Notes: generated by a model not told the origin, from the sequence alone. 39,459 nucleotides of DNA from Gemmataceae bacterium (GCA_019694755.1 JAIBBI010000035.1:1-39459); one strand, 5' to 3'; counted from the first letter of the stretch, positions 20,765-36,833 are shown. Numbers and translations are program-made.

Positions 20765-22423
20765 TTACCAGCGGTAGCCGTACTGCACGTAGAACAGTTC
20801 GGGCGACACGGCCGGGCCGGTGTTCTGGATGAAGTCGCCGCGGTAAAGCTTCGAGTAACCGAGTAGGAAGTCGGAGTGGGCCGACAGGTGGAAGCTCAGC
20901 ACCAGGTCGAGCTCACAGCCGACATCGCGGCCCGAGCTGCCGGTCGGGTCGTTGCGGATCGCCCGGCCTGCCGCATTGTAAAGCGCGTCGCCGGCTTCCG
21001 CGAGCCAGAAGCGGTGGAACTGCACGATGCCGGTCACCCACGGGGCCGGGTAGAAGACCGTCTGGCAGCTCACGTCCTGGATGTTCTGCCGGCCGACGAG
21101 GTCGAGGAACCCGAAGTAGTAGTGGCCGAACGGGAACAACTGCTGGAACGTCGAACGGGTGCCGCCCGCGCCGGGCGTCGACTCGCCCGAGGCCCAGTCG
21201 TAGTAGACCCAGAACTGCGGGTTCATCGGGGCGTCGGCGAAGTGATAACCGAGGCCGGCGGTGGCGGCACCGGCCACGAGATCCTGGTTGGCCCACTCGC
21301 CGAGTTGCAGCATGCCCTCGAAGTCCCACAACACATGGTTGCAGTCGCCGGAATAGCGGGTGCCGATCGTGTGCGCCGTGAAGCCCTGTGTCACGCCGCC
21401 GCTACCGCGGGCCACGTTGTTCGTGTTATCGAGCATGAGGTAGTACAGGTCGACGGCCGTTCCCTTGCGCGGCTTGTACGTGGTCCAGATACCGGCAAAG
21501 TTCTGATTGTTGTCGACGGAATCGAAGCTGTTGCGGTCGACGACGACGGGCTGGACCCAGAACAGGTCGACGTCGAAGTGTTCCTCAGTGCGATACGCCC
21601 GGACGCCTTGGAAGGTGCGCCGGGTGTTGGCCCAATCGAGCGTACTGATGAGCCGCTGCGAGCCGAAGAGCATCTCCTGCCGGCCGACGCGGACGTTGAC
21701 CGGGGCGCCGTCGACCTCGATGGTCTTGAACTCGACGAAGAGGTTGAGGAAGTCACTGCGGTTGATGTCGATGGGCGCGGGATTAACGTCGTGCCAGAAC
21801 GCGTCGGCGTACAGGAACTCGGCGAAGAACCGGACCTGGTCCTTGTACCACAAGTCGCCGTAGAGCCGGCTACGGAGGAGTCCGTAGGAGTCGTTTCCCG
21901 TGGAGAACTGCCGGTCAACTTCGTTCATCTGGCGGAACCAGGACTGACCGCCGGTCGAGAGCAGCCAGTTGTCGCCCAGGCGCATGCGCTTGAGCGGGTC
22001 CATGTAGTCGTGCTGCTTGTTATCGGGCTTGTCGAGGTAGCGGAAGTCGCTGTCGAAGAACGACGGCTGGTAGAAGCCGAAGTTGCCGTACGGCATGATC
22101 GGCGGCTTCTCCCGGCAATTGCCCTGGAGCATGTCGAGGAACGAGTAATAACCGCAGCCCGTGGGCGAAATCGTGAAATAGCCGGGGCGAGGGTGCGGCC
22201 GCGCCGGCGGAACTTTAGAGAAATCGAACTGACACGACGAACAATCGCATGCCGCTGGCGTCGTGACCGGTACGGTCACCGCAACCGGCGGAAGCTCATT
22301 CGGCGCACCGATCGCCGGCGCGGGCGATTGGGCAGCGGCCGGCAGAGCCGTGAGGGACAGGCCGGCCATCGTCGCCGCCGCCCGGAATTGGGATCGAATC
22401 CAACGAAGAGACCGACCGTTCAT
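20765..22423 (-). CDS. Alginate-export-type outer-membrane porin
   Basis: The 552-residue protein starts with a signal peptide (cleavage near PAAA-QSP, residue 31), a Pro-rich stretch and a CDCSSC segment. From about residue 150 it matches the alginate-export (AlgE-like) beta-barrel family: alternating aromatic strands, VRVGRQEMLFGSQRLIS, and a C-terminal Trp (YGYRW), typical for outer-membrane barrel proteins. Such porins pass anionic solutes or polymers through the outer membrane; the substrate here is unknown. It supports an outer membrane in this organism. The gene is divergent from fasciclin and ends at the shared terminator. Confidence 0.82.
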   Translation of the reverse strand: MNGRSLRWIRSQFRAAATMAGLSLTALPAAAQSPAPAIGAPNELPPVAVTVPVTTPAACDCSSCQFDFSKVPPARPHPRPGYFTISPTGCGYYSFLDMLQGNCREKPPIMPYGNFGFYQPSFFDSDFRYLDKPDNKQHDYMDPLKRMRLGDNWLLSTGGQSWFRQMNEVDRQFSTGNDSYGLLRSRLYGDLWYKDQVRFFAEFLYADAFWHDVNPAPIDINRSDFLNLFVEFKTIEVDGAPVNVRVGRQEMLFGSQRLISTLDWANTRRTFQGVRAYRTEEHFDVDLFWVQPVVVDRNSFDSVDNNQNFAGIWTTYKPRKGTAVDLYYLMLDNTNNVARGSGGVTQGFTAHTIGTRYSGDCNHVLWDFEGMLQLGEWANQDLVAGAATAGLGYHFADAPMNPQFWVYYDWASGESTPGAGGTRSTFQQLFPFGHYYFGFLDLVGRQNIQDVSCQTVFYPAPWVTGIVQFHRFWLAEAGDALYNAAGRAIRNDPTGSSGRDVGCELDLVLSFHLSAHSDFLLGYSKLYRGDFIQNTGPAVSPELFYVQYGYRW

Positions 22424-22801
22424 GGCACTGTTCCATCAGTGTTCGGAGTTACTCCTGACAATGGGATCGGTGGGGGTGGGCTGTCCGGAACAAACAAACG
22501 GCCTTGGCCGGTTGCAGTTGCCGGCCCGAGCGGGGCGGCCGGTCTAATTAGCGCGTCTGTGCCGTCTGGAGAATCGGGTGCGGTTTGATCCGAATCGAAG
22601 CAGTGCTGTTTACGGTACGATAGATTCGATCCGGCTGGAGGACCTTGGCCGCGACCCGGGAATAATGTGCGTTGTGGGACGGCTGGATGCACCGATCCGG
22701 TTTTTCTGGATCGGCGCGGTCGAGCTGCCTATGAATAGGACACGGAAGGTCCGGGTAACGTCACCCGGGCCGGGAAGATTTGGGCAACGGAGTTGCGGAT
22801 A
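22424..22801. other. Divergent intergenic region, porin/fasciclin
   Basis: The 378 bp hold no convincing gene; a 74-codon open frame here lacks a ribosome site and any recognisable product. Two hairpins are seen: CCGATCC/GGATCGG (22692-22714, loop with five T) and CCGGGT/ACCCGG (22751-22768), both in the leader of fasciclin. Promoters for both genes must lie here, but I found no clear one. Confidence 0.5.
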
Positions 22802-23428
22802 ATGCGTTCACTGATTCTGGGTACGGTAGCGTTTTGCGGTCTGGTGGCTTTGTCCCCCTGCGCGATCGCTCAGGACAAGAAGGACATCGTCGACACGGCC
22901 GTCGGTGCGGGACAGTTCAAGACCCTGGCAAAGGCGCTGACCGAGGCGGGGCTGATCGACACGCTGAAGGGCAAGGGCCCGTTCACGGTCTTTGCGCCGA
23001 CCGATGCGGCCTTTGCGAAGCTGCCCCCGGGCACCCTCGACGCGCTGCTCAAGGACAAGGCCAAGCTCACGGCCGTCCTGACCTATCACGTGGTGCCGGG
23101 CAAGGTGATGGCGGCCGACGTGGTGAAGCTGAACTCGGCCAAGACCGTGCAGGGTTCGCCCGTGAAGATCACGGTCAACAACGGCAAGGTGATGGTCAAC
23201 CAGGCCAACGTCGTGAAGACCGATATCGAAACCACTAACGGCGTCATCCACGTGATCGACGCGGTCATCCTGCCCCCGGAACAGATCAAGAGCGGGTCCG
23301 TCAACGCGGGTTACGCGCCGGTCGCGGGCGGGTGCGGCACCACGAATTGCGCGAGCGACGGTTGCAACAACGGTTGCGGCAACAACCACGGTCAGCGCCG
23401 CATGTTTCTGCGCCGCGGATGCCGCTAA
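22802..23428 (+). CDS. Exported fasciclin-domain protein with Cys-rich tail
   Basis: The 208-residue protein has a signal peptide (cleavage near AIA-QDK, residue 26) and one fasciclin (FAS1) domain (about 28-160) with H1 and H2 motifs [14 protein letters not shown] and [17 protein letters not shown]1 domains mediate cell-surface or matrix adhesion. The last ~40 residues form an unusual tail with six cysteines among Gly and Asn ([20 protein letters not shown]), ending in [10 protein letters not shown]. The ATG at 22802 follows a CGGAG site by nine bases. It is monocistronic with a terminator downstream. Confidence 0.85.
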
Positions 23429-23445: not shown

Positions 23446-23496
23446 CCAACTCGATCGGGCGCGGCACATTGGCCGGCCGATCGAGTTGGTCTATTT
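23446..23496 (+). terminator. Terminator after fasciclin gene
   Basis: A perfect 13-bp stem (CCAACTCGATCGG with CCGATCGAGTTGG) around an 18-nt loop is followed by the T-rich TCTATTTG. Confidence 0.7.
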
Positions 23497-23505
23497 GCAC
23501 AGGCT

Positions 23506-25020
23506 TCAAGTTCTCGGCTTAACGCTGTAGCTATGCGCGATGTCGCCGGTTTTCTGAGATGATGTCTCGTCTTTGGGCAGCCAGGAACGGACGTAGTCCA
23601 CTTTGGCTTCTTCCGGTGATACGCTGACTCGAAGATAACCGGAGTTCGCCAGTTTCGTCCCGGATGTGTACGCGTCGTCATTGAATGCGGTATACGTCGG
23701 GTCGGCGGGGAGAGGCACTTCCTGATAGATGACGCCGTCGCGGATCTGGCGGGCGTAGAGGTGATCGTGCCCCTGGAAGAAAATGCTGACGCCATGCTTC
23801 GCCATCAGTTGATGGACCGGGAGTTCCCAGCCGGGCCGGTGCTTCTTGAATTCGCCGGCGGTTGACTTGCCCTTGGACTTGCCGCCCCATTCGTAGTTCT
23901 CGGAGGCTTCGACTCCGCCCCGGCCGGTGCCCATGACGTGGTGGGCAAAGACAAACTTGTACCTCGCCCGGCTGCCTTCGAGCGTCTTTCGGAACCAGTG
24001 ATATTGTTCGTCGCCCAGGGTGATGCCCCACCAGTCGCGGTTCTTTTTGTCGTCGGTGGCCTTCTTGTTGCCGCCACCCTTGAATCCGCTGTCGACAATG
24101 GCCTGCGAGTGCCAGTAATTGTCAAGCACGACAAACAGGGCGTCGCCCCAGGTCCAGGCGAAATAGTCGCGGAGCAAGCCGATACCCTTCAGCTCCTTCG
24201 TGTCGCCGGTGTAGATTCCGTCGGTGGCGGGCATCGGAAAGAACCGGTTACGGGCCGTCTGCACGCCGACAGCGACTTCGTGCCGCTCGTCGGTCTGGTT
24301 GTAGTTGAACAGCGACGCCTGCTCGTGATTTCCGTTGACGAGATAGAGCGACGCAAACTGAGCCACCAGACTGAGGAACGGCCGCTGGAGCAGGTACGGC
24401 GCGGCGAGACTGTCCGCGCTGACGGTGCGGACCTTGTCCACGCTGAAATCGTCACCCATGCAGAAGTACAGGTCGGGCCGGCAACCGGCGGCGTGTTGAA
24501 GGGTCCTGGCATAGAGATTGGGTTCGCTCATCTGCGGGCGTTCCGGGTGCGAGTCGCCCTGCACGCAGAATGTGAAACTGCTGCCGACAGGTCGCCGGGT
24601 GTGAAACTGACACTCGGGCCGGGCGTGAAAAGCCGATTCGCCGGGCTTCCGGCTCAACAGGCGGTAATAGTAGCGCGTGCCGGGTCGGAGGTCGTTGATC
24701 GCCATCTCCAGGGGCTGGCCGGTCGCCAGCGTCACGGGCGGGGTTCGCGAGCTGTACTTGTTCGGCTGTGTGCCGTATTCGACGACAGCTTCGAGTTTGT
24801 CCTGGGCGAACAAGTTGGCGGTGATCGCTCTGTCGCCGGCGCGGCCGAAGACCAGCGACAGCGCGTTGTACATCGCCAGGTTCGAAGGCAGGACGTAGCC
24901 TCCGTTAGCGGCGTTCTTCCCTTTCTGCCGGCCGTCCGCCGTCTCGGGAAACAGCGTCAACCCGCCGACGACGGCGCCTGCCGCCCTCAGAAACGCCCTG
25001 CGGTCCGTGCGGTGGTTCAT
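23506..25020 (-). CDS. Tat-exported metallophosphoesterase
   Basis: The 504-residue protein starts with a twin-arginine signal (RTDRRAFLRAAG), so it is exported folded with its metals. A fibronectin-like N-terminal domain (about 75-150, containing GTRYYYRL) precedes the calcineurin-like phosphoesterase domain. Metal-site motifs appear in order: GDSH, GDD, GNHE, AHH and GHDHLYAR, the pattern of purple acid phosphatases and related enzymes. It probably hydrolyses phosphoesters outside the cytoplasm; the substrate is unknown. The ATG at 25020 was chosen to place the Tat motif at residues 7-12. It is the last gene of the ECF-sigma operon, 45 bp after the YHYH-PEBP gene. Confidence 0.85.
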   Translation of the reverse strand: MNHRTDRRAFLRAAGAVVGGLTLFPETADGRQKGKNAANGGYVLPSNLAMYNALSLVFGRAGDRAITANLFAQDKLEAVVEYGTQPNKYSSRTPPVTLATGQPLEMAINDLRPGTRYYYRLLSRKPGESAFHARPECQFHTRRPVGSSFTFCVQGDSHPERPQMSEPNLYARTLQHAAGCRPDLYFCMGDDFSVDKVRTVSADSLAAPYLLQRPFLSLVAQFASLYLVNGNHEQASLFNYNQTDERHEVAVGVQTARNRFFPMPATDGIYTGDTKELKGIGLLRDYFAWTWGDALFVVLDNYWHSQAIVDSGFKGGGNKKATDDKKNRDWWGITLGDEQYHWFRKTLEGSRARYKFVFAHHVMGTGRGGVEASENYEWGGKSKGKSTAGEFKKHRPGWELPVHQLMAKHGVSIFFQGHDHLYARQIRDGVIYQEVPLPADPTYTAFNDDAYTSGTKLANSGYLRVSVSPEEAKVDYVRSWLPKDETSSQKTGDIAHSYSVKPRT

Positions 25021-25065
25021 TCTTCGTGTCTCGTTTCGGAAGGATTGGGGCACGGCGGCATAACA

Positions 25066-26943
25066 CTATTTGGGCTTCCGCTCGTAGGTGTAGGTCAGGG
25101 TCGACTCGGCGAGCGTGATGCCCTGGATCGCCTTCAGCAGATCGGCCCGTGTAACTTTGTCGGTCGCGAACTTCGGCTCGGCGGAGAGCGCGTACATCGT
25201 GATGTGGTACTCTTTCACGCCCGGCCCTTTGGAGTTCATGGGGTCGTAACCGGTTCGCTTCTTGTCGTTGTAACCGTCCTTGCCGACTCCCCGACTGTTC
25301 TTCTCCAGGCTCGTGACGTTGGCCGGAATATTGGTGACGACCCAGTACGACTTCACTTCGTCGCCGTCCGGGCGGGGCTTATGCCAGAGTTGAAGCGCGA
25401 AGAACTTCGTCCCGGCCGGTGCGCCGGACCATTTCAGCGGCGGAGAGATACCGTCGCCGTCGCCGGTGAACTCGGCGGGCATTTTGCCATCGGGTCCAAA
25501 AGCCGGGCTGGTGAGTTGGAACCCGTCTTTCGACCTGCCCGGCCGATCGTCCTTCTTTTGCGGCGGGGAGTCTTTCTTCGGCGGCCGATCATCCTTCTTC
25601 TGTTGCGGCCTTCGGCCTTCCGCGTTGGTGCGGTACGTCTCGGTCGTTTCCCGGCCATTGCCGTCCTTGAAGACGAATGTGTAGGCGCCGGCAGTCGCGG
25701 TGTACTTCACGGAATGAGTCTGGCCGCGAAGGTCGTATATTACAGTCACGGTTTTCCTGTCATCGTCGCGCTCGAATCCGGTGATCCTCGCCCCCCGCAA
25801 CGGCGTGAGTGCGGGCCGGGGAGAATAGGCCCGCGGCTGAGGATCGATCTGATCGTCCTTCACCGTCACAACGCCCCGCAGGCCGCCGTTGACGTAGGGA
25901 TACTTCTTCGTGGCGTAATAGCGGTAGCCGTCTTTCTCCATCCGGCCATTGAATTCGTCGAGGTCCTTCGGTTCCTTGCCGGCAGCATCGGTGAACCCGT
26001 AGAGCGGATAGCCGTCGAGCGCGTAGCCGATGGGGTTTCCTTTCCCGACCGTCTTTTCCAGGTGCACCGGGGCAATGTGGTAGTGGTAGTCGTCCGCCCG
26101 CCCGCAGTGACCGCCGTACTCGTCGAGTTCGCCCGCGACGAATGTGTCCGTCCGCCCGTCGTTCTTGATCGGATTGAAGATCGGCACGCCATTGGCGGCC
26201 AGAGCGATGGCTCCGCGGAACAGTTCCTTCTTCGCCGAGACGGGTTTGTCGGACATTCTGGGGTGCAGAGGGATCTGCCAGGCATTGCGGCCGGTGTACG
26301 CCTGCGGGATCGGCACCTGCTGCTGCCAGGCGCGGATACCGACCATCATCGGGTGGTCCGGCATCCCGTTCGATTCGACATAGAAGTAGCGGTCGTCACT
26401 GCGGAACTTGAGCTTGTTGCCGAACGGCTCGAAGTGTTTCTGGATGGCCGACACTGGTTTGTCATCGCGAGCTATCGCCAGAACGGAAAAGGAACAGATG
26501 ACCAGCGATGCGGCCAGCATCGATGTGGATACGCGGCGACGACCGACAAGCCGGATCGCCGCAATCCCACAACCCATGACAAACACCGCAGAGACAGCCG
26601 GTATGACGGCAGATAGCACCGGGCGGCCGGTCGCTTCGACGGGTTCCGGGGCATCGGTCGCACCGTTCAGTGCGCGGATGGCGTCGAGACGGTTCCTTAT
26701 CCAGATCCCGTCGGACTGGCTGAGTTTGTCGAGTGGTACCCAGACCGTCGTACCGTCGTCTTTGCAGAGCTGGACTCTGCCATCGCGAGCCATCACGAAG
26801 GTCGCCTCAATCTCGAACAACCCGTCTCTGTCTTTCCAGACTCGGAGGTCCGGAGAATGAGAGTGGCCGGGGTGGGCCTGCAGTGGGCCGGCACCCGGGA
26901 TTACCAGGACCAGCATCGCGATTACGGCAATAACTCTGCTCAT
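25066..26943 (-). CDS. SHD1-YHYH-PEBP fusion protein
   Basis: The 625-residue protein has a signal peptide (1-23, then HPGHSHS), an SHD1-like domain (about 30-88, RDGRVQLCKDDGTTVWVPLDKLS), a membrane segment (110-132), and a second hydrophobic stretch (140-158, ending VLAIA-RDD) that looks like another signal peptide. Then comes a YHYH domain (about 160-380; YHYH at 286-289, GYALDGYPLYG), a charged Lys/Pro linker (445-473), and a PEBP/YbhB-like domain (475-625, PPLKWSGAPAG). The parts occur separately in other proteins, so this is a fusion, perhaps of an SHD1 protein with a secreted YHYH-PEBP protein. Function unknown. Its ATG overlaps the stop of the gene before it (ATGA), a sign of coupled translation. 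Confidence 0.8.
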   Translation of the reverse strand: MSRVIAVIAMLVLVIPGAGPLQAHPGHSHSPDLRVWKDRDGLFEIEATFVMARDGRVQLCKDDGTTVWVPLDKLSQSDGIWIRNRLDAIRALNGATDAPEPVEATGRPVLSAVIPAVSAVFVMGCGIAAIRLVGRRRVSTSMLAASLVICSFSVLAIARDDKPVSAIQKHFEPFGNKLKFRSDDRYFYVESNGMPDHPMMVGIRAWQQQVPIPQAYTGRNAWQIPLHPRMSDKPVSAKKELFRGAIALAANGVPIFNPIKNDGRTDTFVAGELDEYGGHCGRADDYHYHIAPVHLEKTVGKGNPIGYALDGYPLYGFTDAAGKEPKDLDEFNGRMEKDGYRYYATKKYPYVNGGLRGVVTVKDDQIDPQPRAYSPRPALTPLRGARITGFERDDDRKTVTVIYDLRGQTHSVKYTATAGAYTFVFKDGNGRETTETYRTNAEGRRPQQKKDDRPPKKDSPPQKKDDRPGRSKDGFQLTSPAFGPDGKMPAEFTGDGDGISPPLKWSGAPAGTKFFALQLWHKPRPDGDEVKSYWVVTNIPANVTSLEKNSRGVGKDGYNDKKRTGYDPMNSKGPGVKEYHITMYALSAEPKFATDKVTRADLLKAIQGITLAESTLTYTYERKPK

Positions 26944-27716
26944 TTGGATGGCCCCCACGGGATCGCCCCGGACACGTCCAGGTTCGGCTTGGTATTCCAG
27001 CGCGGCTTCCAACCCGGCTTGTCCACACGGAGCCGGAAGATGATCGTATTGTCGAGGTCGAGATCGCCCGTCCAGATGAACTTCGCACCCTTGAAGTCGG
27101 CCTTGTAATACGACTCCTTGGGATTAACCCGTTCCTCGGTGTACTCCGTCGCATGGGCCCATTTGCTGTCGTCGAAGTCCACGGCCCACCAGTCCTCCGG
27201 GATCGACTCGTGCCGGACCTGCGGGTTCCTGACGTCCCGGTCGAGCGGCCCGGTGAAGAAGCACCGGGCCTTCCATTGGGCGTTGGTGACCGTGCCGTCG
27301 CCGAATTTGAGAATGAAACCGCCATCCCCGATGTGGTCGCCGTACTCCAATCCAGTCTTCGGGTCGGCGTTGTCTTTGGCCATGACGGCAATGGTCATCG
27401 GGTACTCGGGCAGGATGTCCACCGAGATCACGTTGTGCGGTATGAAATCAATCGAATCAACTGCCGTAAGCCTGCCGTTGATGTAAAGAACGAACCAGTT
27501 GTCAGCGTAAATATTGGCTTTGATCGTGTCGGCCATGGTCGGCTTGACGAGCCCCGCGGGACCGCCCTTGCCTTTCCCTTTGCCTTTGCCCTTCTCGTCC
27601 TTCTGACCGCCCGGCGGCTGGGCCACCGTGAACGACAGCGTCGCCAGGCCGGCGATCGCTCCGATCACGAGCATGAAAACCAGTGCCCGAAGCCCGGGAG
27701 CTTTCCGTTGGTACAT
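26940..27716 (-). CDS. Exported protein of unknown function, ECF operon
   Basis: The 258-residue protein has an N-terminal hydrophobic segment (9-32), a Gly/Lys linker (KGKGKGKGKGG) and a beta-rich body with YADNWFVLYINGRL, FDDSKWAHATEY and FKGAKFIWTGDLDLDNTIIFRLRVD. The pattern resembles galactose-binding-like (jelly-roll) modules such as those fused to glycosidases, but I do not recognise the family. The ATG at 27716 follows GGAGGA by five bases and starts one base after the stop of the anti-sigma-like gene. Its own stop overlaps the start of the YHYH-PEBP gene. It is probably extracytoplasmic. Confidence 0.75.
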   Translation of the reverse strand: MYQRKAPGLRALVFMLVIGAIAGLATLSFTVAQPPGGQKDEKGKGKGKGKGGPAGLVKPTMADTIKANIYADNWFVLYINGRLTAVDSIDFIPHNVISVDILPEYPMTIAVMAKDNADPKTGLEYGDHIGDGGFILKFGDGTVTNAQWKARCFFTGPLDRDVRNPQVRHESIPEDWWAVDFDDSKWAHATEYTEERVNPKESYYKADFKGAKFIWTGDLDLDNTIIFRLRVDKPGWKPRWNTKPNLDVSGAIPWGPSK

Positions 27717-27717
27717 C

Positions 27718-28668
27718 TCATTCCTCCTCGACGACCGTCCTGTCGGCGTCGCGATGGGCCTGGTGATGAAAGAACTCGCCCTGCAACTTGTCCTGGCTGA
27801 CCAGTTCCACCGCGAGGCTGTCCGGGCCACCCCGGGCCCGCGGCATACCGCTAAACACCATGCGGCGAATGACGCCGGTGTCCGGGTCGAACCAGAGTTC
27901 GACCCGGTTCGGACCGCGGTACTCGGTCGACTTCTTTACCGCCAGCAGGCCGCTCTGGCCCGACGGCACTCTTCCCAGCGGCGTGACAGTGTAGGCATCC
28001 CGGAGTTGCACGAGATCTGATCGCAGGTCGACGAACGGTATTCCGTGCTGATGGCCCGGGACGGGCCCGCGAAATCGCAACGGGTCGCTGCTCACTCGAA
28101 CCAGTCCGTCTGGCGGCACGGCCCAGCTTCGTTCGCCGTCGCTGCCGGTGACGAACCTCCGGCCATCGGGGTACTGCCGGACGAGTACGTACTGATCCGG
28201 TTTTCGAACGTGCAGCGTGGCTTTGTCAATCGGCGGCTGGCGATCCCTGACCTGTTCCGATTGGCCGTCGAGGTTGCGAATGATGTAGGTCCGGTCGCAG
28301 TTGTCGGAGGCCAGATCAATCAGGCGGTCAAGTTGGGTCGCCGCGCTGACCGACGCAGCACTACTCCACCACACTGCGATCAAAGCGATCGCGGCAATGA
28401 TCGCCAGCCCTCCGGCGACACTCCATCGCCGACGCAAGTTGGCGGGACTGACGCGTATTGTCGACGGCACCGCGCGGTTGTCGGATTGGCGATCAGCCGC
28501 CATCCCCCCAATGACGCTTTGCAGACGATCATGAAGCCGGACCATCGCCGCAAACTCGGCGGCATTCTCCGGGGCCGACTTGATCCAGACGCCGAGTTCC
28601 ACCTCCCCTTCACGGTCCAGAATCCCGTCAAGGTACGCATTCACGAGCGTCGTCATGTGCTGGTTCAT
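27718..28668 (-). CDS. Membrane anti-sigma-like protein with RseB/LolA-like domain
   Basis: The 316-residue protein has an N-terminal helical segment (1-60; YLDGILDREGEVELGVWI) typical of planctomycete anti-sigma or FecR-type regulators without the zinc HxxxCxxC motif, a membrane helix at about 80-100, and a beta-rich outside domain (110-300). That domain, with LHVRKPDQYVLVRQYPDG and ELWFDPDTGVIRRM, resembles the RseB/LolA-type sensor fold. The protein likely holds the ECF sigma factor at the membrane and senses an extracytoplasmic signal (inference). Its start overlaps the sigma gene stop by ATGA. Confidence 0.72.
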   Translation of the reverse strand: MNQHMTTLVNAYLDGILDREGEVELGVWIKSAPENAAEFAAMVRLHDRLQSVIGGMAADRQSDNRAVPSTIRVSPANLRRRWSVAGGLAIIAAIALIAVWWSSAASVSAATQLDRLIDLASDNCDRTYIIRNLDGQSEQVRDRQPPIDKATLHVRKPDQYVLVRQYPDGRRFVTGSDGERSWAVPPDGLVRVSSDPLRFRGPVPGHQHGIPFVDLRSDLVQLRDAYTVTPLGRVPSGQSGLLAVKKSTEYRGPNRVELWFDPDTGVIRRMVFSGMPRARGGPDSLAVELVSQDKLQGEFFHHQAHRDADRTVVEEE

Positions 28669-29198
28669 GCCTCGGCCCCGGCGACTTTCCGTTCGACACA
28701 GTCCCTCAAGCCGTCGCGAATGCGCTGGAGAGCCTTGGCCACGGCATTGGGGGCCATGCCCTTCTGCTCGCCGATCGCTGCGGGCTTCAGGTCCTGCTCG
28801 TAACGCAGGCGACACAGTTCCCGCGACTTCGCATCAAGTTGCTCGACGCACTCGCTGAGATGATCGAGTCGCTGGTCCTGTTGGGAGGAATCGGCGAAAG
28901 CCCGTGCCAGGGCTTCGATGGTTTCGGAATCGAAGGCGATCCGCTCCCGGCCTTTGCGCCGAAAGTGCAGGCGGACCTGATTGCGGGCGATACCGATGGC
29001 CCAGCCGACGAACGGCTGCGCCGGATCGTACCTCGCATAAGATTGCAGCACGGCGACTGCCGTTTCCTGCATCACGTCATCCCGATCCTGAAACCGATCT
29101 ACGAGGGAGGTAACCAACGCGGAAACCGTCGGCACTGCCAACGTCCACAGCCGGGCCGCATTCAGCGTTTGTTTGTCCACAGGCATCCACGGAGGCAT
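28665..29198 (-). CDS. ECF RNA polymerase sigma factor
   Basis: The 177-residue protein has sigma region 2 (about 28-90; DRDDVMQETAVAVLQSYARYDPAQPFVGWAIGIARNQ) and region 4 (about 120-170; LDAKSRELCRLRYEQDLKPAAIGEQKGMAPNAVAKALQRIRDGLRDCV), typical of ECF sigma factors expanded in planctomycetes. Region 4 should recognise a -35 element and region 2 a -10. It heads a five-gene operon in which the sigma, anti-sigma-like, 258-residue and YHYH-PEBP genes overlap or nearly abut, and it probably controls that operon. The ATG at 29198 is used; 29186 is a possible alternative, and neither has a clear ribosome site. Confidence 0.9.
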   Translation of the reverse strand: MPPWMPVDKQTLNAARLWTLAVPTVSALVTSLVDRFQDRDDVMQETAVAVLQSYARYDPAQPFVGWAIGIARNQVRLHFRRKGRERIAFDSETIEALARAFADSSQQDQRLDHLSECVEQLDAKSRELCRLRYEQDLKPAAIGEQKGMAPNAVAKALQRIRDGLRDCVERKVAGAEA

Positions 29199-29344: not shown

Positions 29345-30409
29345 ATGATCCGCTTCGTTCGAACGCCCGTGCTGGCCGCCGTGGTTGGCGTGCTGGGACT
29401 GTCGGCCAGCCTGCCCGATGCGGCCGCCTGTTCGCGGGTGGTACACTCGTCGAAGGACGGCAAGCTTGTCGTCACGGGCCGGAACATGGACTGGTTCGAG
29501 GACATCAAGTCGAACCTCTGGATCATGCCGGCCGGCCTGGAGCGGAACGGGTCGGCCGGGGCGAACTCCGTCAAATGGGTCTCGAAGCACGGCAGCGTGA
29601 TCACAGCCGGGTTCGACGTCGGCACCACCGACGGGCTCAACAAAAAGGGGCTGGCCGTCAACCTGCTCTATCTGGCCGAATCGGACTTCGGGCCGCGCGA
29701 CGCAAGGCCCGGCATCTCGTGGTCGGCGTACACGCAGTACCTGCTCGATTCCTATGCCACAGTCGCGGAAGCGGTGGCCGGGGAAAAGGGCGACCGCATC
29801 CAGATCGTCGCATCGCCGCTGCCCGGCACTACGAGCAAGCCGCCCGCGCTGCACTTCTCGCTGTCCGATGCGACCGGCGACTCGGCCATCTTCGAGCACA
29901 TCGGCGGTAAGCTGGTGATCCACCACGGCAAGCAGTACAAGGTGATGACCAACTCGCCGATCTACGACCAGCAACTGGCCCTGAACGCGTACTGGCAATC
30001 GATCGGCGGCGACGCGATGCTGCCGGGTACCCGCAGGGCGGCGGACCGGTTCGTTCGTGCCAGCTTTTACGAAAGCAAGCTGCCGGACCCGACGAGCCCG
30101 CGGCAGGCCGTGGCCAACGTCATGTCCGTGATGCGCAACGTGTCCGCGCCGTTCGGCGAGGCGGACCCGACGAAGCCGAACGTCTCTGCCACGATCTGGC
30201 GCACGGTCGCGGACCACACCAACCGCGTGTACTACTTCGAATCGACCATGTCCCCCAGCCTCGTCTGGGTGAAGTTCGATGCGATCGACCTGAAGAAGGG
30301 TGCGCCCGTGAAGAGGATCCGGCTCGGCGAGAGCTTTGAGCACTCGGGAGATGTGAGTGCGAAGTTCGAGGAGGCCAAGCCGTTCGCCTTCGCCGGCCCC
30401 CAGAGTTAG
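29345..30409 (+). CDS. Exported choloylglycine-hydrolase-family Ntn amidase
   Basis: The 354-residue protein has a signal peptide ending in SLPDAAA before C29. In the linear amide C-N hydrolase family (bile salt hydrolase, penicillin V acylase) a cysteine freed at the mature N-terminus is the nucleophile, so signal removal here should expose it. Other family signatures are GRNMDW (Arg and Asp of the active site), GLNKKGLAVNLLYL, MTNSP and RRAADRF. It probably hydrolyses an amide such as an acyl-amino acid or acyl-homoserine lactone outside the cytoplasm; the substrate is unknown. GGGAGAG precedes the ATG. Its last codon overlaps the end of the convergent RND gene. Confidence 0.88.
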   Translation: MIRFVRTPVLAAVVGVLGLSASLPDAAACSRVVHSSKDGKLVVTGRNMDWFEDIKSNLWIMPAGLERNGSAGANSVKWVSKHGSVITAGFDVGTTDGLNKKGLAVNLLYLAESDFGPRDARPGISWSAYTQYLLDSYATVAEAVAGEKGDRIQIVASPLPGTTSKPPALHFSLSDATGDSAIFEHIGGKLVIHHGKQYKVMTNSPIYDQQLALNAYWQSIGGDAMLPGTRRAADRFVRASFYESKLPDPTSPRQAVANVMSVMRNVSAPFGEADPTKPNVSATIWRTVADHTNRVYYFESTMSPSLVWVKFDAIDLKKGAPVKRIRLGESFEHSGDVSAKFEEAKPFAFAGPQS

Positions 30410-33400
30410 TTGACCCAGTTGTCGTTCCAGGGTTCGTCGATCGTGGAAGCGGCCGGGGCCGCGGGTTGGTAGACCTTCCGGCCGAACTGCCAGAAGACCG
30501 CCGGCGTCACGATCTGGTCCATCAGCGTGGCGTCGAGCAGGCCGCCGATCACGACGAGGGCGAGCGGGTACAGGATCTCCTTGCCCGGCTGACCCGCGCC
30601 GAGGGCGAGCGGGATCAGGCCGAGGATGGCCGTCAGCGCGGTCATCAACACCGGTGCGAGGCGTTCGAGGGTGCCGCGGACGATCATGTCTTCGGAGAAC
30701 GCTTCGCCCTCGTGCGTCATCAGGTGGATGTAGTGCGCGATCATCATGATCCCGTTGCGGCTCACGATGCCGATCAGCGTGATGAAGCCGACCCAGTGCG
30801 CGAGTGACAGCGTGGTGGTGGCGGCCCAGACGCGCGGCCAGTCGTACCACGGGGTGGCGAGCAGGTCGTCCATGTGCGGGCGGTTCACGAGCAGCAGCAT
30901 GGCGATGGAGCCGACCGCGGCCAGCGGAATGTTGACGAGCAGCACCATCAGGGCGGCCCGCCAGGAATCGAGGCAGTGCCAGAGCAGGAGGAACACGCCG
31001 ACGAGGGCGAGGCCGGCGAGAAAGCTGAGGCGCGAGGCGGCCTGCTGCTGGGCCTCGAACTGGCCGCCGTACTCGATGCGGTAGCTGCCGGGCAGCGAGC
31101 GCAGCTTGTCCTCGGTCGGGGCGAGCGCGGCGCGGATGTCGGTGACGACGGTGCCGAGGTCCCGGCCCTGCACGTTGCAGGCCACGACGATTCTGCGCTG
31201 GACGTGTTCGTGGTTGAGTGTGTTCGGCCCGGTGGTGTCGAGCACCTCGGCGACTTGCGAGAGCGCGACCTTTCGGCCCGAGGGCGTGTCGAGGATCGTC
31301 TCGCCGATCACGCCGGGGTCGTTGCGGGCCTGCTCGTCGTACCAGACCACCAGTTGAAAGTAGCGGTCTTCGTCGAGCACGAGCGACACCGCCCGGCCCT
31401 TGTACGCGGTCTCCAGGAGTCGCGCGACATCGCCGGGAGCGAGGCCGTAGCGTGCCGCTTCGCCGCGACGAACTTTCAAGCGGACCTGCGGGATCTCGAC
31501 CTGTGGCTCGATCTGTAAGTCGACGACGCCGGGGATCGCGCTCATGGCGGTCTGCACGTCCTGGGCGGCGTTGCGGAGTTCGCGGAGGTCGGTGCCGAAG
31601 ACCTTGACGGCGACCTGCGACCGCACGCCGGACATCAGGTGATCGATGCGGTGACTGATCGGCTGGCCGATGTTCACCTTCACGTTGGGCAGGACGGTGA
31701 CTTTGTCGCGGATGTCGGCGAGGACCTGTTCGTGGGGCCGGCCGAGCGTCTCGACGCCCCAGCCGTGCAGGCCCGGGATGCCGCGGAGGGCGGCGAACAG
31801 GACGCCGGGCTTCGGCCGCTCGTGGGGCGTGAGTCGGACGTCGATCTCGGACGAGTTGATCCCCTCGGCGTGTTCGTCCTGCTCGGCCCGGCCGGTCCGG
31901 CGGGCGACGGCCGCGACTTCGGGCACCTGCAAGAGCAGCGATTCGGCCCGGCCCGCGACCCGCGTGCTCTCCTGCAGGCTGGTGCCGGGCTCGAGTTGCA
32001 GGTTGATCGTCAGCGTGCCCTCGTTGAACGGCGGGAGAAACTCCGAGCCCATCCACAGGACGATGAGCTTCGAGCCGATGCCGAAGAACGCCACCGCCGC
32101 AATGATGGGCCGGGGGTGCCGCAGCGACCAGCGGACGATCTTCTCGACCAGCCATTTCAGACCGCGGAGCAGCCAGGGGTCGCCGGCGTGGCTCATGAAC
32201 TTCGCGTGCGGCAGCAGGAACGACGCGAGCACCGGCGTGACAGTGAGCGATACGACGAGCGACGCCACCAGCGACAGCATGTACGCCAGGCCGAGCGGCG
32301 CGAACATCCGCCCCTCGAGCCCCGCCATCGCGAACAGCGGCAGCACGACCAGGCACACGATCAGCGTCGCGTACACGATCGAGTTGCGCACCTCGGACGA
32401 GGCGCGGTAGACCACCCGCAGCGCGGGCTGGGGCGTCGGGCTCTGGCGGTTCTGCTTCAGCCGGCGGTAGATATTCTCCACATCCACGATGGCGTCGTCG
32501 ACGAGTTCGCCGACGGCGACGGCGATGCCGCCGAGCGTCATCGTGTTGATGGTCACGCCGAACCAGCGGAAAATCAGGAACGTGCTGAGCACCGACAGCG
32601 GGATCGCGGTGAGCGTGATGAAGCTGGTGCGGAAGTTGGCGAGGAACAGGAACAGCACGACGACGACCCAGATCGTGCCGTCGCGGATGGCCTCGATGAC
32701 GTTGTCGACGGCGGTACGGATGAACTCGGCCTGGCGGAAGACGTGGCGGTCGATGGCGACGCCGGGCGGCAGTTCCTTCTCGAGTTGATCGATCACGCGG
32801 TCGATCTTGGGGTCGAGTTCGAGGGTGTTCGCGCCGGGCTGCTTCTGGATGGTGAGGATGACGGCCGGGCCGCCGACAAGGTCAGGGGTCTTGAGGCGGA
32901 CGCCGCCGTCGCCGCGTCGGACGGGCCCATCGAAGCGGACGTCGGCGACGTCGCGGATCTTGACGGCGCGGTTGCCGCGCCAGACCACTGGCGTCTCGCC
33001 GATCTCGGCAAGGGTGAGGCCCTGGCCGCTGATGCGAATGAGCGACTCGCGGACCTGCCGCTCCATGATGCCGCCGCCGGCGATGACGTTGGCCTTTTCG
33101 GCGGCTTCGGTGAGTTGCTGCAGGGTGACGTTTTGGGCAGCGAGGCGTTCGGGCGAGGTGACGACCTGATACTGCTTCAGCACGCCGCCCATGACCGTGA
33201 CCTGCGAGACGCCGTCGACCGCGAGCAGGCGGTTGCGCAGGGTGAACTCAGCGAGCGTGCGGAGGTCCATCGCCTGCTGCCGGCGGCCCGGCTCATCCGC
33301 GGCGGGCGTGGTCGCGCGGACGGCGAGGATGACGATCTCGCCCATGATCGAGGAGATCGGCGCGAGCACGGGATTCGCCTCGGCGGGCAGGCGCTCGCGG

Positions 33401-33750
33401 GCAAGTTGGAGTTTCTCGGCGACGATCTGCCGATCCTGGTAGATGTCCGTGCCCCAGCCGAACTCAACCCAGACGATCGACAGGCCGATCCCCGAGGCGG
33501 AGCGCACCCGCTGGACCCCGGTCGCACCGTTGAGCAGGTATTCGATCGGGCGGGTGACGAGGACTTCGACTTCTTCCGGTGCGAGGCCCGGTGCCTCGGT
33601 CATGACAGTGACGGTGGGGCGGTTGAGGTCGGGGAACACGTCGATGGGCATGGACGCGAGTTGCCAGGTGCCGACGACGATGAGGATCAGCGCGGCCAGC
33701 AGCACCATCCACCGGTGCTTGAGCGAGAACGCGATGACGGAGTCGAGCAT
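30406..33750 (-). CDS. Heavy-metal-type RND efflux pump (CusA/CzcA-like)
   Basis: The 1,114-residue inner-membrane protein matches the HME-RND family: an N-terminal helix (14-34), a large porter domain, and about 12 membrane helices. The transmembrane proton-relay segment at residues 415-427 reads GELVDDAIVDVEN, with the acidic residues D418/D419, D423 and E425 corresponding to the HME D-D-E pattern. Such pumps export mono- or divalent metal ions across the cell envelope with an adaptor and an outer-membrane channel. Which metal is exported cannot be read from sequence. It follows the double adaptor by 6 bp. No TolC-type channel gene is in the window. Confidence 0.9.
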   Translation of the reverse strand: MLDSVIAFSLKHRWMVLLAALILIVVGTWQLASMPIDVFPDLNRPTVTVMTEAPGLAPEEVEVLVTRPIEYLLNGATGVQRVRSASGIGLSIVWVEFGWGTDIYQDRQIVAEKLQLARERLPAEANPVLAPISSIMGEIVILAVRATTPAADEPGRRQQAMDLRTLAEFTLRNRLLAVDGVSQVTVMGGVLKQYQVVTSPERLAAQNVTLQQLTEAAEKANVIAGGGIMERQVRESLIRISGQGLTLAEIGETPVVWRGNRAVKIRDVADVRFDGPVRRGDGGVRLKTPDLVGGPAVILTIQKQPGANTLELDPKIDRVIDQLEKELPPGVAIDRHVFRQAEFIRTAVDNVIEAIRDGTIWVVVVLFLFLANFRTSFITLTAIPLSVLSTFLIFRWFGVTINTMTLGGIAVAVGELVDDAIVDVENIYRRLKQNRQSPTPQPALRVVYRASSEVRNSIVYATLIVCLVVLPLFAMAGLEGRMFAPLGLAYMLSLVASLVVSLTVTPVLASFLLPHAKFMSHAGDPWLLRGLKWLVEKIVRWSLRHPRPIIAAVAFFGIGSKLIVLWMGSEFLPPFNEGTLTINLQLEPGTSLQESTRVAGRAESLLLQVPEVAAVARRTGRAEQDEHAEGINSSEIDVRLTPHERPKPGVLFAALRGIPGLHGWGVETLGRPHEQVLADIRDKVTVLPNVKVNIGQPISHRIDHLMSGVRSQVAVKVFGTDLRELRNAAQDVQTAMSAIPGVVDLQIEPQVEIPQVRLKVRRGEAARYGLAPGDVARLLETAYKGRAVSLVLDEDRYFQLVVWYDEQARNDPGVIGETILDTPSGRKVALSQVAEVLDTTGPNTLNHEHVQRRIVVACNVQGRDLGTVVTDIRAALAPTEDKLRSLPGSYRIEYGGQFEAQQQAASRLSFLAGLALVGVFLLLWHCLDSWRAALMVLLVNIPLAAVGSIAMLLLVNRPHMDDLLATPWYDWPRVWAATTTLSLAHWVGFITLIGIVSRNGIMMIAHYIHLMTHEGEAFSEDMIVRGTLERLAPVLMTALTAILGLIPLALGAGQPGKEILYPLALVVIGGLLDATLMDQIVTPAVFWQFGRKVYQPAAPAASTIDEPWNDNWVN

Positions 33751-33756
33751 GCGTCG

Positions 33757-35973
33757 TCACCTGAGAGATGCGTAAGCCGTCTGCAAGCCGTTCACGCCGC
33801 GCACAGCGATGACCTCGGCTTCCGCCAGGCCGGCGGTCACTTCGGTCCATTGGTCGTCGGCCCGGCCGGTGGTCACGGGCCGGCGGTCGAACGCGCCGTC
33901 GGCCGAGCGCACGAACACGTAGGCCCGGGTCCCTTCGTGGAGGATCGCGGTATGGGGCACGGCGAGGGTCGGCGGCGAACTCGCCGCGACGATCGCGATG
34001 CCGGCCAATTGCCCGTCGCGGAGCATGGCCGGAGTCGGCTGCGGCAGGTCGACCCAGATCCGCAGCGTCTGATCGTCGGGCGAGACGACCCGGCTGCTGC
34101 GGACGACCCGCCCCTCCATCGTCGTGCGCGAGTCGGCCGTCAGCCGGACCCGTGCGGCCTGGCCCACGGCGATACGTCGGGCGTCGCGCTCGGAGACAAA
34201 CCCCTGCACCGCGGGGCGCGACAGGTCCTGTACTTCGAAGAGCGGCGTCTCGGCCTTCACCGATTGGCCGAGCGCTTTGTCGAAGCTGGTGATGGTGCCG
34301 GCGATCGGCGAACGGACGGGCACGCGGTCGAGCGGTCGGCGGGCCGAGACCATCGCGTCGATCTGCTCCGGCGTCAGGCCCGCGACCGCCAGGCGGTTGC
34401 GGACGCTGTCGCGGCGGAACCGCACGGCGTTGCGCTCCGCGGCCAGTTCGACCAGCTTGCGCCGGGGGACCGCGTCGCCGGCCGTCTGGTACGCCTTGTT
34501 CTGCTGCTCGAGCAGGTCGAGCGCGAGCTGTTCCCGGATCAGCTCCAGTTGCAGATTCATCGCCTCGAGGCTGAAGACCTCGGCGAGTACCTGCCCGGCC
34601 GTCACGGCCTGCCCGCGGTCGACCAGGATCGTGACGATGTTGCCCGCGAGCGGAGTCGAGGCGACGCTCCGGCGATCGGGCAGCACGTCGACCTGCCCTT
34701 CGACTTCGATGACGTCGGCGACCGGGTGCCGGGCGACGGGCGCGACCTGCAGACCGATCGTGGTCGCCGCCTCGGGGCTCAGCTTCAGGACGCCGGGCAC
34801 AAAGAAGCCGCCCAGTTCATGCGCGCCTTGCGTGACCACGCGGTCGCCGGGGAAGAGCGACGGCGCACGGACCTCGACCCGGTCGGCCGTGGCACGGACC
34901 ACGACGACGTTTTTCCGGCGATACTCCGATTGTTTGTCGGCCTTGGCCTCTTCGACGAGGATGTACTGGGCCAGCCCGTCGTCGATCAGCGCGGCGGCCG
35001 GCACCACCCGTGCGTCGGCGGGAACCGGCATCTGTATCCGTGCCTGGCCCGTCATGCCCGGCAGCAGCGTCGGCTCGACGCCCGGCGGGTTGGTCAACTC
35101 CACCCACACCGAGTTCAGATGCGAGACAGGGTCGAGCCCCGGGTTCACGACCTGCACCGTGCCGGCGAACACCGCGCCGGGCAGGGCCGACAGGCGTACT
35201 GCGACGGGCTGGCCGGGGGCGACGCGCTGGTAGTCCTTCTCGAGCACGCCGATCCGCGCCCACACGGTGGTCAGATCGACGACTTCGAAGAGGTGCTCGT
35301 TCGACTCGATGACTTTGCCGACGGAGAGGTCGGCGTGAACGACGGTGCCGGCCACGGGGCTGCGAATCGGGTAGCTGGCCACGCGGTGGTTCGGGTCGCG
35401 CACGACGGCGTCGAAGTCGGTGGCTTCGAGGCCGAGGCCCAGCCATTTGGCGCGGGCAACGGCCAGGGCGTTGACCGTCTGGAGTCGCTTGGCGTCGGCA
35501 TCGAGGACGGTCTGCCGGGGCACCGACCCGCCGGACTCGCGCAGGATCGCGAGCGATTGCTCCGCCAACTTCTGCTCGGTGTGAGCCGAGATGATCTCGA
35601 GATGGAGATTCTCCAACTCGAAGCTGACGATCTCGGCGACGGTCTGGCCGGCGGCGACCTTCTCGCCGGGCCGGGCGTGCATGCGGACGATGCGGCCCGG
35701 CAACCGCGACGTGGCGAAGGCGTGCCGTTGCCAGGGCGCGACGAGCGTGGCGTACGCCAGCACGGAGTCGGGGATGGGCCGGGTGGTGATCTCGGCCGCC
35801 TTCACGTCGAGCGCGTCGCGCGACTCCCGGCTGAGGACGATAAACCCCTTGACCGCGTCGACCTGCGCGCCGCGCGACGGCAGGGCGACGTGGCCCTCGT
35901 GGGCGTAGAGCCAGGTGACCGCCGCGGTGACGAGCACGGCGCACGCCAGCGCGCGGTAATGGAATGTCGGCAC
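33757..35973 (-). CDS. Double periplasmic adaptor (two fused RND adaptor modules)
   Basis: The 738-residue protein begins with a signal or anchor (6-24) followed by HEGH. It contains two complete RND adaptor modules: module 1 with lipoyl halves at 93-117 and 204-234 and a coiled-coil hairpin between, and module 2 (about 400-738) with lipoyl halves at 444-468 and after 550. Paired segments such as RSPVAGT...LFEVVDL and RSPIAGT...LFEVQDL show the duplication. Adaptors usually have about 350-450 residues. The GTG start at 35973 follows a GGGAGG site by nine bases. It lies between the YHS-like lipoprotein and the RND pump genes and should link the pump to an outer-membrane channel. Confidence 0.85.
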   Translation of the reverse strand: MPTFHYRALACAVLVTAAVTWLYAHEGHVALPSRGAQVDAVKGFIVLSRESRDALDVKAAEITTRPIPDSVLAYATLVAPWQRHAFATSRLPGRIVRMHARPGEKVAAGQTVAEIVSFELENLHLEIISAHTEQKLAEQSLAILRESGGSVPRQTVLDADAKRLQTVNALAVARAKWLGLGLEATDFDAVVRDPNHRVASYPIRSPVAGTVVHADLSVGKVIESNEHLFEVVDLTTVWARIGVLEKDYQRVAPGQPVAVRLSALPGAVFAGTVQVVNPGLDPVSHLNSVWVELTNPPGVEPTLLPGMTGQARIQMPVPADARVVPAAALIDDGLAQYILVEEAKADKQSEYRRKNVVVVRATADRVEVRAPSLFPGDRVVTQGAHELGGFFVPGVLKLSPEAATTIGLQVAPVARHPVADVIEVEGQVDVLPDRRSVASTPLAGNIVTILVDRGQAVTAGQVLAEVFSLEAMNLQLELIREQLALDLLEQQNKAYQTAGDAVPRRKLVELAAERNAVRFRRDSVRNRLAVAGLTPEQIDAMVSARRPLDRVPVRSPIAGTITSFDKALGQSVKAETPLFEVQDLSRPAVQGFVSERDARRIAVGQAARVRLTADSRTTMEGRVVRSSRVVSPDDQTLRIWVDLPQPTPAMLRDGQLAGIAIVAASSPPTLAVPHTAILHEGTRAYVFVRSADGAFDRRPVTTGRADDQWTEVTAGLAEAEVIAVRGVNGLQTAYASLR

Positions 35974-35990
35974 GGTGACGGGCCTCCCGG

Positions 35991-36833
35991 TTACTTCTTC
36001 TTGTACTCGTCGGGCGGGAGGATCTCGGCGGGCTTCTCCTTCGCCGTGGTGAGAAACTCGTCGACGCAGGGCGGGCAGCAGAACTCGTAAGTCTGGCCGC
36101 CGATCACCCACGAGAACTTCGGGTTGGCCTTGGTCAGCGTGATCGGGCAGACCTTGTCGCCGGGCTTCGGCTTCAAATCGTGCTCGGCTTTGACGCCTTT
36201 AAACTTCTCGCTGGCCGTGACGTTGCCGTTGGCCTTGATGTCGGCCTCGGTGTACTTGCCGCCGGCGGTGAGGTAAAGCTTGCGCTCGGCCTCGTCGGCG
36301 ACCTTGGTGGGCATGGCGTGATCCGCCGCCCTCTCGTCGGTCACGGACTTGAAGGAGATGCGGAACCGCTCGCCCTTGATCGTGATGCTGGGGACGGTGA
36401 CCTCGAGTTTCTTCCCGGCCAGTGGAGCGGGCAGGTTGCCCAGAAACATGCTGGTCATGCCCGCCTTGTCGCCCGGTTGCGGCTTGGCGTTCAGGGCGAA
36501 CGACTGCGCCTCGGCATCGCCCTCGGCTTTGACGTAGGCGGTGATCTGCTGGGCTTCGATTTCCTGGACCCGGCTCTCGTCCTGCCCGAGCAGGTAGAGT
36601 CGCAGCACGCCGCCTTTCTCGAACACGGCCTCGGCGTGGTAGTTGTCCCGGCCGATGGGTACGAGGATGCCACCGTGCGCGCTCGGCTTGTGGCCGTGCT
36701 CCTCGTCGGCGACCGCCGTCGCTGTGGTCGTCGCGGTCTTCGCGACCGGCACGGGCGACCGCGCGGGGTTCGAGCAGCCGAGGGTGATCGCTGCCAATGT
36801 CGAGAGTATTGCGATCTTCAGTAACTGGTTCAT
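35991..36833 (-). CDS. Lipoprotein with YHS/TRASH-like metal domain
   Basis: The 280-residue protein has a lipoprotein signal with lipobox ITLGC (C20). A beta-rich middle follows, then a C-terminal Cys cluster, CPITLTKAN ... YEFCCPPCVDEFL, resembling the YHS/TRASH metal-binding motif. It is probably an outer- or inner-membrane lipoprotein that binds metal for the efflux system (inference). The region HGHKPSAHGGIL near residues 48-60 is His-rich. GGAG lies eight bases before the ATG. It is 17 bp before the adaptor gene. Confidence 0.8.
   Translation of the reverse strand: MNQLLKIAILSTLAAITLGCSNPARSPVPVAKTATTTATAVADEEHGHKPSAHGGILVPIGRDNYHAEAVFEKGGVLRLYLLGQDESRVQEIEAQQITAYVKAEGDAEAQSFALNAKPQPGDKAGMTSMFLGNLPAPLAGKKLEVTVPSITIKGERFRISFKSVTDERAADHAMPTKVADEAERKLYLTAGGKYTEADIKANGNVTASEKFKGVKAEHDLKPKPGDKVCPITLTKANPKFSWVIGGQTYEFCCPPCVDEFLTTAKEKPAEILPPDEYKKK

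Follow-up and report, generated by a model that had tools for sequence, protein, structure and literature searches.

A predicted autoregulated ECF sigma factor operon with lectin-like and YHYH-PEBP outputs in a Gemmataceae bacterium

Planctomycetes possess very many ECF genes, including dozens of ECF sigma factors, and to our knowledge the targets of very few of these have been established. The closest described systems on the regulatory side are RpoE-RseA-RseB of E. coli, in which an ECF sigma factor is closely coupled to a membrane inhibitor and a LolA/RseB-type domain outside the membrane, and FecI-FecR, which works with a TonB receptor partner. Classical ECF promoters are recognised by an AAC in the -35 box and a CGT in the -10 box, and FecI-like systems are a stated exception to autoregulation (PMC8103513). 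On the output side, YHYH domains of jumbo phages and other sources have been predicted to be Zn-dependent hydrolases that use three His and one Asp (PMC7824862), and in mushroom lectins two consecutive Asp serve both calcium and sugar (PMC11512411). The open-access literature yielded no paper describing the operon considered here, its promoter or its outputs, and nothing on YHYH or on SHD1/PEBP proteins in planctomycetes beyond PMC7824862.

Operon layout and gene order in relatives

The window, a stretch of 39,459 nucleotides, comes from a Gemmataceae bacterium (GCA_019694755.1) whose assembly comprises 5.64 Mb in 335 contigs and is 97% complete. The minus strand of 23506-29198 carries all five operon genes, encoding an ECF sigma factor, an anti-sigma-like membrane protein, a secreted protein (EXP), an SHD1-YHYH-PEBP protein (SYP) and a phosphatase (PHO) (Table 1). 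The original prediction of five same-strand genes joined by two ATGA overlaps and a 1-bp gap is borne out by the coordinates, the overlaps lying between sigma and anti-sigma (28668-28665) and between EXP and SYP (26943-26940) and the gap between anti-sigma and EXP at 27717, while 45 bp separate SYP from PHO. The sigma gene likely starts at 29186 and not at 29198, because homologues align from Met5. The hairpin directly beyond PHO is a candidate transcription terminator, possibly acting in both directions; it has no T-run and is therefore absent from the list produced by the terminator scan. Scanning the region for the sigma-70 consensus gave no housekeeping promoter.

Table 1. Coordinates of the operon, its candidate promoter and its candidate terminator in the window.
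Feature	Position	Strand	Basis or detail
Predicted sigma promoter, GTCAC-N14-GGTTAA	29253-29229	-	PWM 30.9; sole exact core-pattern match in genome
ECF sigma gene	29198-28665	-	TIGR02989; PF04542 + PF08281 (sigma regions 2 and 4 only)
Anti-sigma-like gene	28668-27718	-	one membrane helix; alignment and profile comparison
EXP gene	27716-26940	-	AlphaFold2 fold and conservation
SYP gene	26943-25066	-	Pfam SHD1 + YHYH + PBP; AlphaFold2
SYP domains (residues)	signal peptide; SHD1 31-89; YHYH ~165-370; beta-sandwich ~385-440; PEBP-like 473-623
PHO gene	25020-23506	-	Pfam Metallophos 5.2e-7; invariant metal-site motifs
Hairpin directly 3' of PHO, between convergent genes	23446..23489	-	fold -32.2 kcal/mol, z -5.7

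On the side of PHO, the operon is bordered by a convergent gene for a secreted fasciclin-domain protein (22793-23428, plus strand), the strong hairpin lying in between, and then by an Alginate_exp (PF13372) outer-membrane barrel (20765-22423, minus strand). Divergent from the sigma gene lies a gene for a choloylglycine-hydrolase/penicillin-acylase family protein (29345-30409, plus strand), followed by a CusA-type RND pump and an HlyD/CusB-type fusion protein, possibly for metal efflux (30406-36111, minus strand).

Searching public genomes with SYP gave 80 loci. The order sigma, anti-sigma, EXP, SYP, with a sulfatase and/or PHO nearby, recurs in many planctomycete loci and contigs, the nearest relative (G008) showing sigma, anti-sigma, EXP, SYP, sulfatase and PHO on one strand, and the ATGA overlap of sigma and anti-sigma is retained in most loci with the operon order. 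A gene order peculiar to this one genome would have spoken against the original prediction, and the loci show the contrary; judged by its repetition in independent genomes the five-gene arrangement is far beyond chance. Among the 53 loci whose upstream sequence extends to 4.5 kb or more, EXP is found in 25, the sigma gene in 21 and the anti-sigma gene in 21; the EXP loci also hold the anti-sigma gene in 17 and a sulfatase in 23 of the 25 cases. Glycan hydrolases, lyases and transporters did not turn up as repeated neighbours. About half of the SYP loci have no sigma pair nearby, and the SYP tree requires several gains or losses of the linkage to sigma. At four loci of Verrucomicrobiota and Armatimonadota (L089, L092, L095, L097), the place of the sigma pair beside the output genes is taken by a two-component system, made up of a histidine kinase and an OmpR-type regulator. 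Two further loci carry tandem genes of the ammonium-transporter family just upstream of the sigma operon (L044, 47-3532; L045, 851-4329).

Promoter motif and predicted regulon

When the regions upstream of 24 sigma genes were compared, 22 proved to share a two-block motif, GTCA[TC]-N14-GGWTAAGT, the spacing between the blocks being fixed at exactly 14 bases and the fuller consensus reading wTTC..GTCAT[AG]AT-N11-CGG[TA]TAAGTa. Eleven of the 24 sequences contain the best exact two-block word, as against 2-3 in shuffles; among the regions compared, L087 showed no clear motif. A matrix was built from 23 sites (22 sigma upstream regions and that of L045), 22 of which score at least 18.9 when left out of its construction. 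When this matrix was run over 2.47 Mb of loci, all matches above 15 stood a short way ahead of a gene of the system, on its coding strand. Seven such matches lie outside the training set, ahead of a sigma gene (L033), SYP genes (L051, L062, L065, L066) and sulfatase genes (L058, L084), and at a threshold of at least 14 shuffled sequence gave one match and reversed sequence none. Within the window the operon site scores 30.9 and the next best 2.4. The sigma promoter that had been expected upstream of 29198 thus has a precise candidate, at the position given in Table 1.

Whole genomes were searched for exact matches to the core pattern. In the window genome there is a single one, ahead of the operon. 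The ten genomes searched hold 19 exact matches, of which 13 stand ahead of a sigma, EXP, SYP or sulfatase gene; the remaining six, away from genes of the system, are no more than a mirrored control yields. One genome (G346) has two motif matches, one ahead of the sigma/anti-sigma pair and one ahead of SYP; another (G347) carries the sigma/anti-sigma pair, EXP and a sulfatase-SYP unit on separate contigs with the motif ahead of each; a third (G345) has it ahead of two sulfatases. None of these sites ahead of EXP, SYP and sulfatase genes lying apart from the operon was used in deriving the motif. The window genome itself has an unlinked sulfatase orthologue of 74% identity (G000:C123), which was considered as a regulon member and is not supported, having no motif upstream.

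The predicted regulon of the operon's sigma factor in the window genome would accordingly comprise about one promoter, as a candidate set. That the operon forms an autoregulated, self-contained unit is well supported in silico and probably correct, because the pattern matches once in the genome and the motif also stands ahead of unlinked EXP, SYP and sulfatase genes. The original idea of a self-contained sensing and response unit is strongly favoured by these two observations together with the conserved gene order and the candidate promoter, with the qualification that the unit is divisible, since other phyla have the output genes but not the sigma pair with them.

Proteins encoded by the operon

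The sigma factor scores 149.8 bits against TIGR02989 (curated cut-off 124.55), and of the 49 matches to this family in the window genome it is the sole one above the cut-off, the other 48 being weaker. The anti-sigma-like protein has a cytoplasmic N-terminus, one membrane helix (around residues 84-103) and an outside domain (around 148-302). The window protein itself matches no Pfam family, DUF4880 (FecR_N-like) included, which is found at the N-terminus of 11 of 24 orthologues (best E 5.4e-6). In hhalign comparisons the outside domain matches a LolA alignment at 75.8% (E 2.3e-5, 143 columns), as against 0.1% for an unrelated control profile; a single LolA sequence gives only a weak profile match, the single sequence of E. 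coli RseB gives none (0.2%), and PF03888 (MucB_RseB) is matched by none of the 24 members. By profile comparison, the domain is of the LolA/RseB superfamily fold class, so that the RseB-like outside domain first proposed stands at the level of fold class through the LolA profile, but not by comparison with E. coli RseB alone or with PF03888. His206, His302 and His305 are conserved; His306 is present in most orthologues and replaced by Arg in the window protein.

EXP matches no Pfam family, and its sequence has no significant match in the PDB. Its AlphaFold2 model (pLDDT 84.2) is a secreted single-domain jelly roll, which VIA-align places closest to the CBM67 region of a Streptomyces rhamnosidase (3w5n; Z 10.6, rmsd 3.2 over 119 residues) and to a Pleurotus lectin (Z 9.8), both standing above the unrelated rows; a CBM67/galactose-binding-like lectin fold is thus predicted. 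Residues D72-N73 are invariant, lying just ahead of an LY-NG strand, and may be equivalent to the residue pair of the calcium-dependent sugar site of the mushroom lectins. EXP is rare, occurring in 12 of 294 genomes of the phylum, and its homologues, other phyla included, are 49-71% identical to the window's protein over whole-protein alignments, a combination that would fit a strongly constrained cassette spread by horizontal transfer.

In the AlphaFold2 model of SYP (pLDDT 85.3), two predicted membrane helices (113-135 and 140-156) lie between SHD1 and YHYH. The SHD1 domain scores 49.2 bits (cut-off 23.7), its predicted fold matching 2hbp with Z 9.0, and the YHYH domain (PF14240) scores 56 bits (cut-off 25) and is matched by all 61 orthologues. 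His279, Asp284, Asp285, His287 and His289, around the DDYHYH motif, are invariant in the 61 sequences, in line with the Zn-hydrolase prediction made for YHYH domains elsewhere (PMC7824862). Comparison of the model with the PDB and with viral models gave no match for the YHYH domain, the lists being filled by matches of the PEBP domain. The latter is predicted to have the PEBP fold (Z 23.3 to 3n08) but has lost the DPDxP anion-pocket motif, LWHKPRPD standing in its place, and the pocket His is also replaced. The same genome encodes a second SYP-like protein (L121, 1455-2768; G000:C26), 58% identical over residues 1-451, whose gene adjoins that of a PQQ beta-propeller protein and has no promoter motif.

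PHO is a calcineurin-like metallophosphatase with a purple-acid-phosphatase-like N-domain, and its metal-site motifs are all kept, D156, H158, GD190, GNH232, H360 and GHDH420 being invariant in 20 homologues. The gene had been described as encoding a Tat phosphatase; the metallophosphatase and an RRAFL pattern agree with this, but the twin-arginine signal, at 14.3 bits, stays below the TIGR01409 cut-off of 16.7. Five other loci (L086, L093, L099, L100, L101) have PHO genes of two subfamilies on either side of SYP, sharing roughly 40-49% and 34-37% identity with the PHO of the window. The sulfatases of relatives contain the CxP[ST]R motif in 60 of 67 cases. The outputs had been expected to be of unknown biochemistry, which is right in part: it still describes YHYH, but a CBM67-type lectin fold is predicted for EXP, phosphoesterase motifs are kept in PHO, and CxPxR sulfatases are added in relatives.

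Proposed function, alternatives and known systems

At rest, the membrane protein would hold the sigma factor through its cytoplasmic N-terminal domain, while the LolA/RseB-like domain outside, with its conserved His, may sense a ligand or the state of the envelope. We infer that a signal would free the sigma factor to bind core polymerase and to transcribe from GTCAY-N14-GGWTAAGT, raising its own level and that of the secreted set: SYP as a membrane-anchored SHD1-YHYH-PEBP protein, EXP as a CBM67-type lectin, PHO as a metallophosphatase and, in relatives, sulfatases too. This set would most likely bind and trim cell-surface glycans that carry sulfate or phosphate groups. The regulatory part, in which the ECF sigma/anti-sigma operon controls its own transcription and its dedicated regulon numbers about one promoter, is probable, being grounded in gene content, order, coupling and the motif as read from the genomes, at unlinked genes included. 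The glycan role, suggested by the lectin fold of EXP and by the sulfatases, is somewhat less than an even prospect, and sulfation is not tied to the window's copy because its sulfatase orthologue is unlinked and motif-free. More tentatively still, EXP, SYP, sulfatase and PHO could make up an undescribed surface glycan-processing machine of Planctomycetota, Verrucomicrobiota and Armatimonadota, a cassette placed under exchangeable sensors (the ECF sigma pair or a two-component system), in which YHYH would represent a new metallo-hydrolase class, with the same substrate being reported by the LolA-fold sensor.

Other readings of the secreted set have to be weighed against glycan processing. The inhibitor might sense metal through His206, His302, His305 and, in most orthologues, His306, with the outputs serving metal or phosphate homeostasis, an explanation compatible with the regulatory part of the preferred one and counting YHYH, PHO and the calcium site of the lectin as its metal-dependent outputs. 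It draws on the conserved H and HxxHH positions of the anti-sigma, on the invariant His/Asp around DDYHYH in SYP and on the metal-efflux-type CusA/HlyD genes upstream in the window; these genes, however, do not belong to the neighbour clusters that recur at the other loci, and the window's anti-sigma has Arg at 306, so that metal sensing is unlikely while far from negligible. Maintenance of lipids or cell wall, with lipids handled by the PEBP-like and LolA-like domains and phosphate removed from lipid-linked products by PHO, appears more doubtful again: the strongly matched PEBP fold and the LolA-like sensor suit it, but other residues stand in place of the DPDxP motif and the His in the PEBP pocket, and sulfatase and CBM67-type fold point to glycans.

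The remaining alternatives concern the regulator and the coherence of the gene set. A sigma pair that regulates envelope stress in general, as RpoE/RseA/RseB does, and merely adjoins unrelated secreted genes would fit the LolA/RseB-like outside domain and the occurrence of the output genes without sigma in other phyla. This is nonetheless improbable in view of the solitary exact promoter match that the genome contains and of a motif that EXP, SYP and sulfatase genes carry even when unlinked, other genes not rising above background. Nor is much to be said for an ordinary planctomycete ECF operon with a drifting gene set whose co-location reflects recent descent only. Despite the very large number of planctomycete ECF genes and the 48 weaker family matches in this genome, EXP is well conserved across phyla, the output genes are found repeatedly beside either of two regulator types, and the motif accompanies the gene set; its presence ahead of unlinked genes already disfavours drift, and we regard this reading as very improbable. 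If the preferred reading of a dedicated, autoregulated operon holds, one planctomycete sigma factor gains from sequence alone a precise candidate promoter and a closed candidate regulon, and EXP, YHYH and the DPDxP-less PEBP, three families without known function, are joined in one co-regulated set that crosses phyla.

Set against known systems, the regulator is of a known kind and its outputs are largely undescribed. The sigma factor belongs with the TIGR02989 subfamily of Rhodopirellula and Verrucomicrobium, exceeding its curated cut-off, and differs from classical ECFs in that the AAC/CGT hallmark (PMC8103513) is absent from GTCAT / GGWTAAGT. With RpoE-RseA-RseB the operon shares the closely coupled membrane inhibitor, the outside LolA/RseB-type domain and, as predicted, autoregulation, whereas here inhibitor and LolA-like domain form a single protein and the predicted regulon of about one promoter leads to a lectin-like protein, a YHYH-PEBP protein and hydrolases. 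With FecI-FecR it shares the DUF4880/FecR_N-like N-terminus of anti-sigma orthologues, but the locus has no TonB receptor partner and autoregulation is predicted. The regulator is filed under neither system because PF03888 and a TonB partner are lacking, autoregulation is predicted and the promoter is not of the AAC/CGT type. Among the outputs, EXP resembles the CBM67 of the Streptomyces rhamnosidase and the Pleurotus ostreatus lectin in its jelly-roll fold and in the acidic/amide pair before the LY-NG strand (site described in PMC11512411), but it is a stand-alone, secreted protein of 14-23% identity to them with putative sugar binding. SYP carries PF14240 as do the YHYH proteins of jumbo phages and others, in contrast to which its YHYH domain is joined with SHD1 and a PEBP-like domain within a cellular envelope protein, and it shares the PEBP fold of the bacterial YbhB/YbcL proteins (Z 20-23) in a form that has given up both the DPDxP pocket motif and the pocket His.
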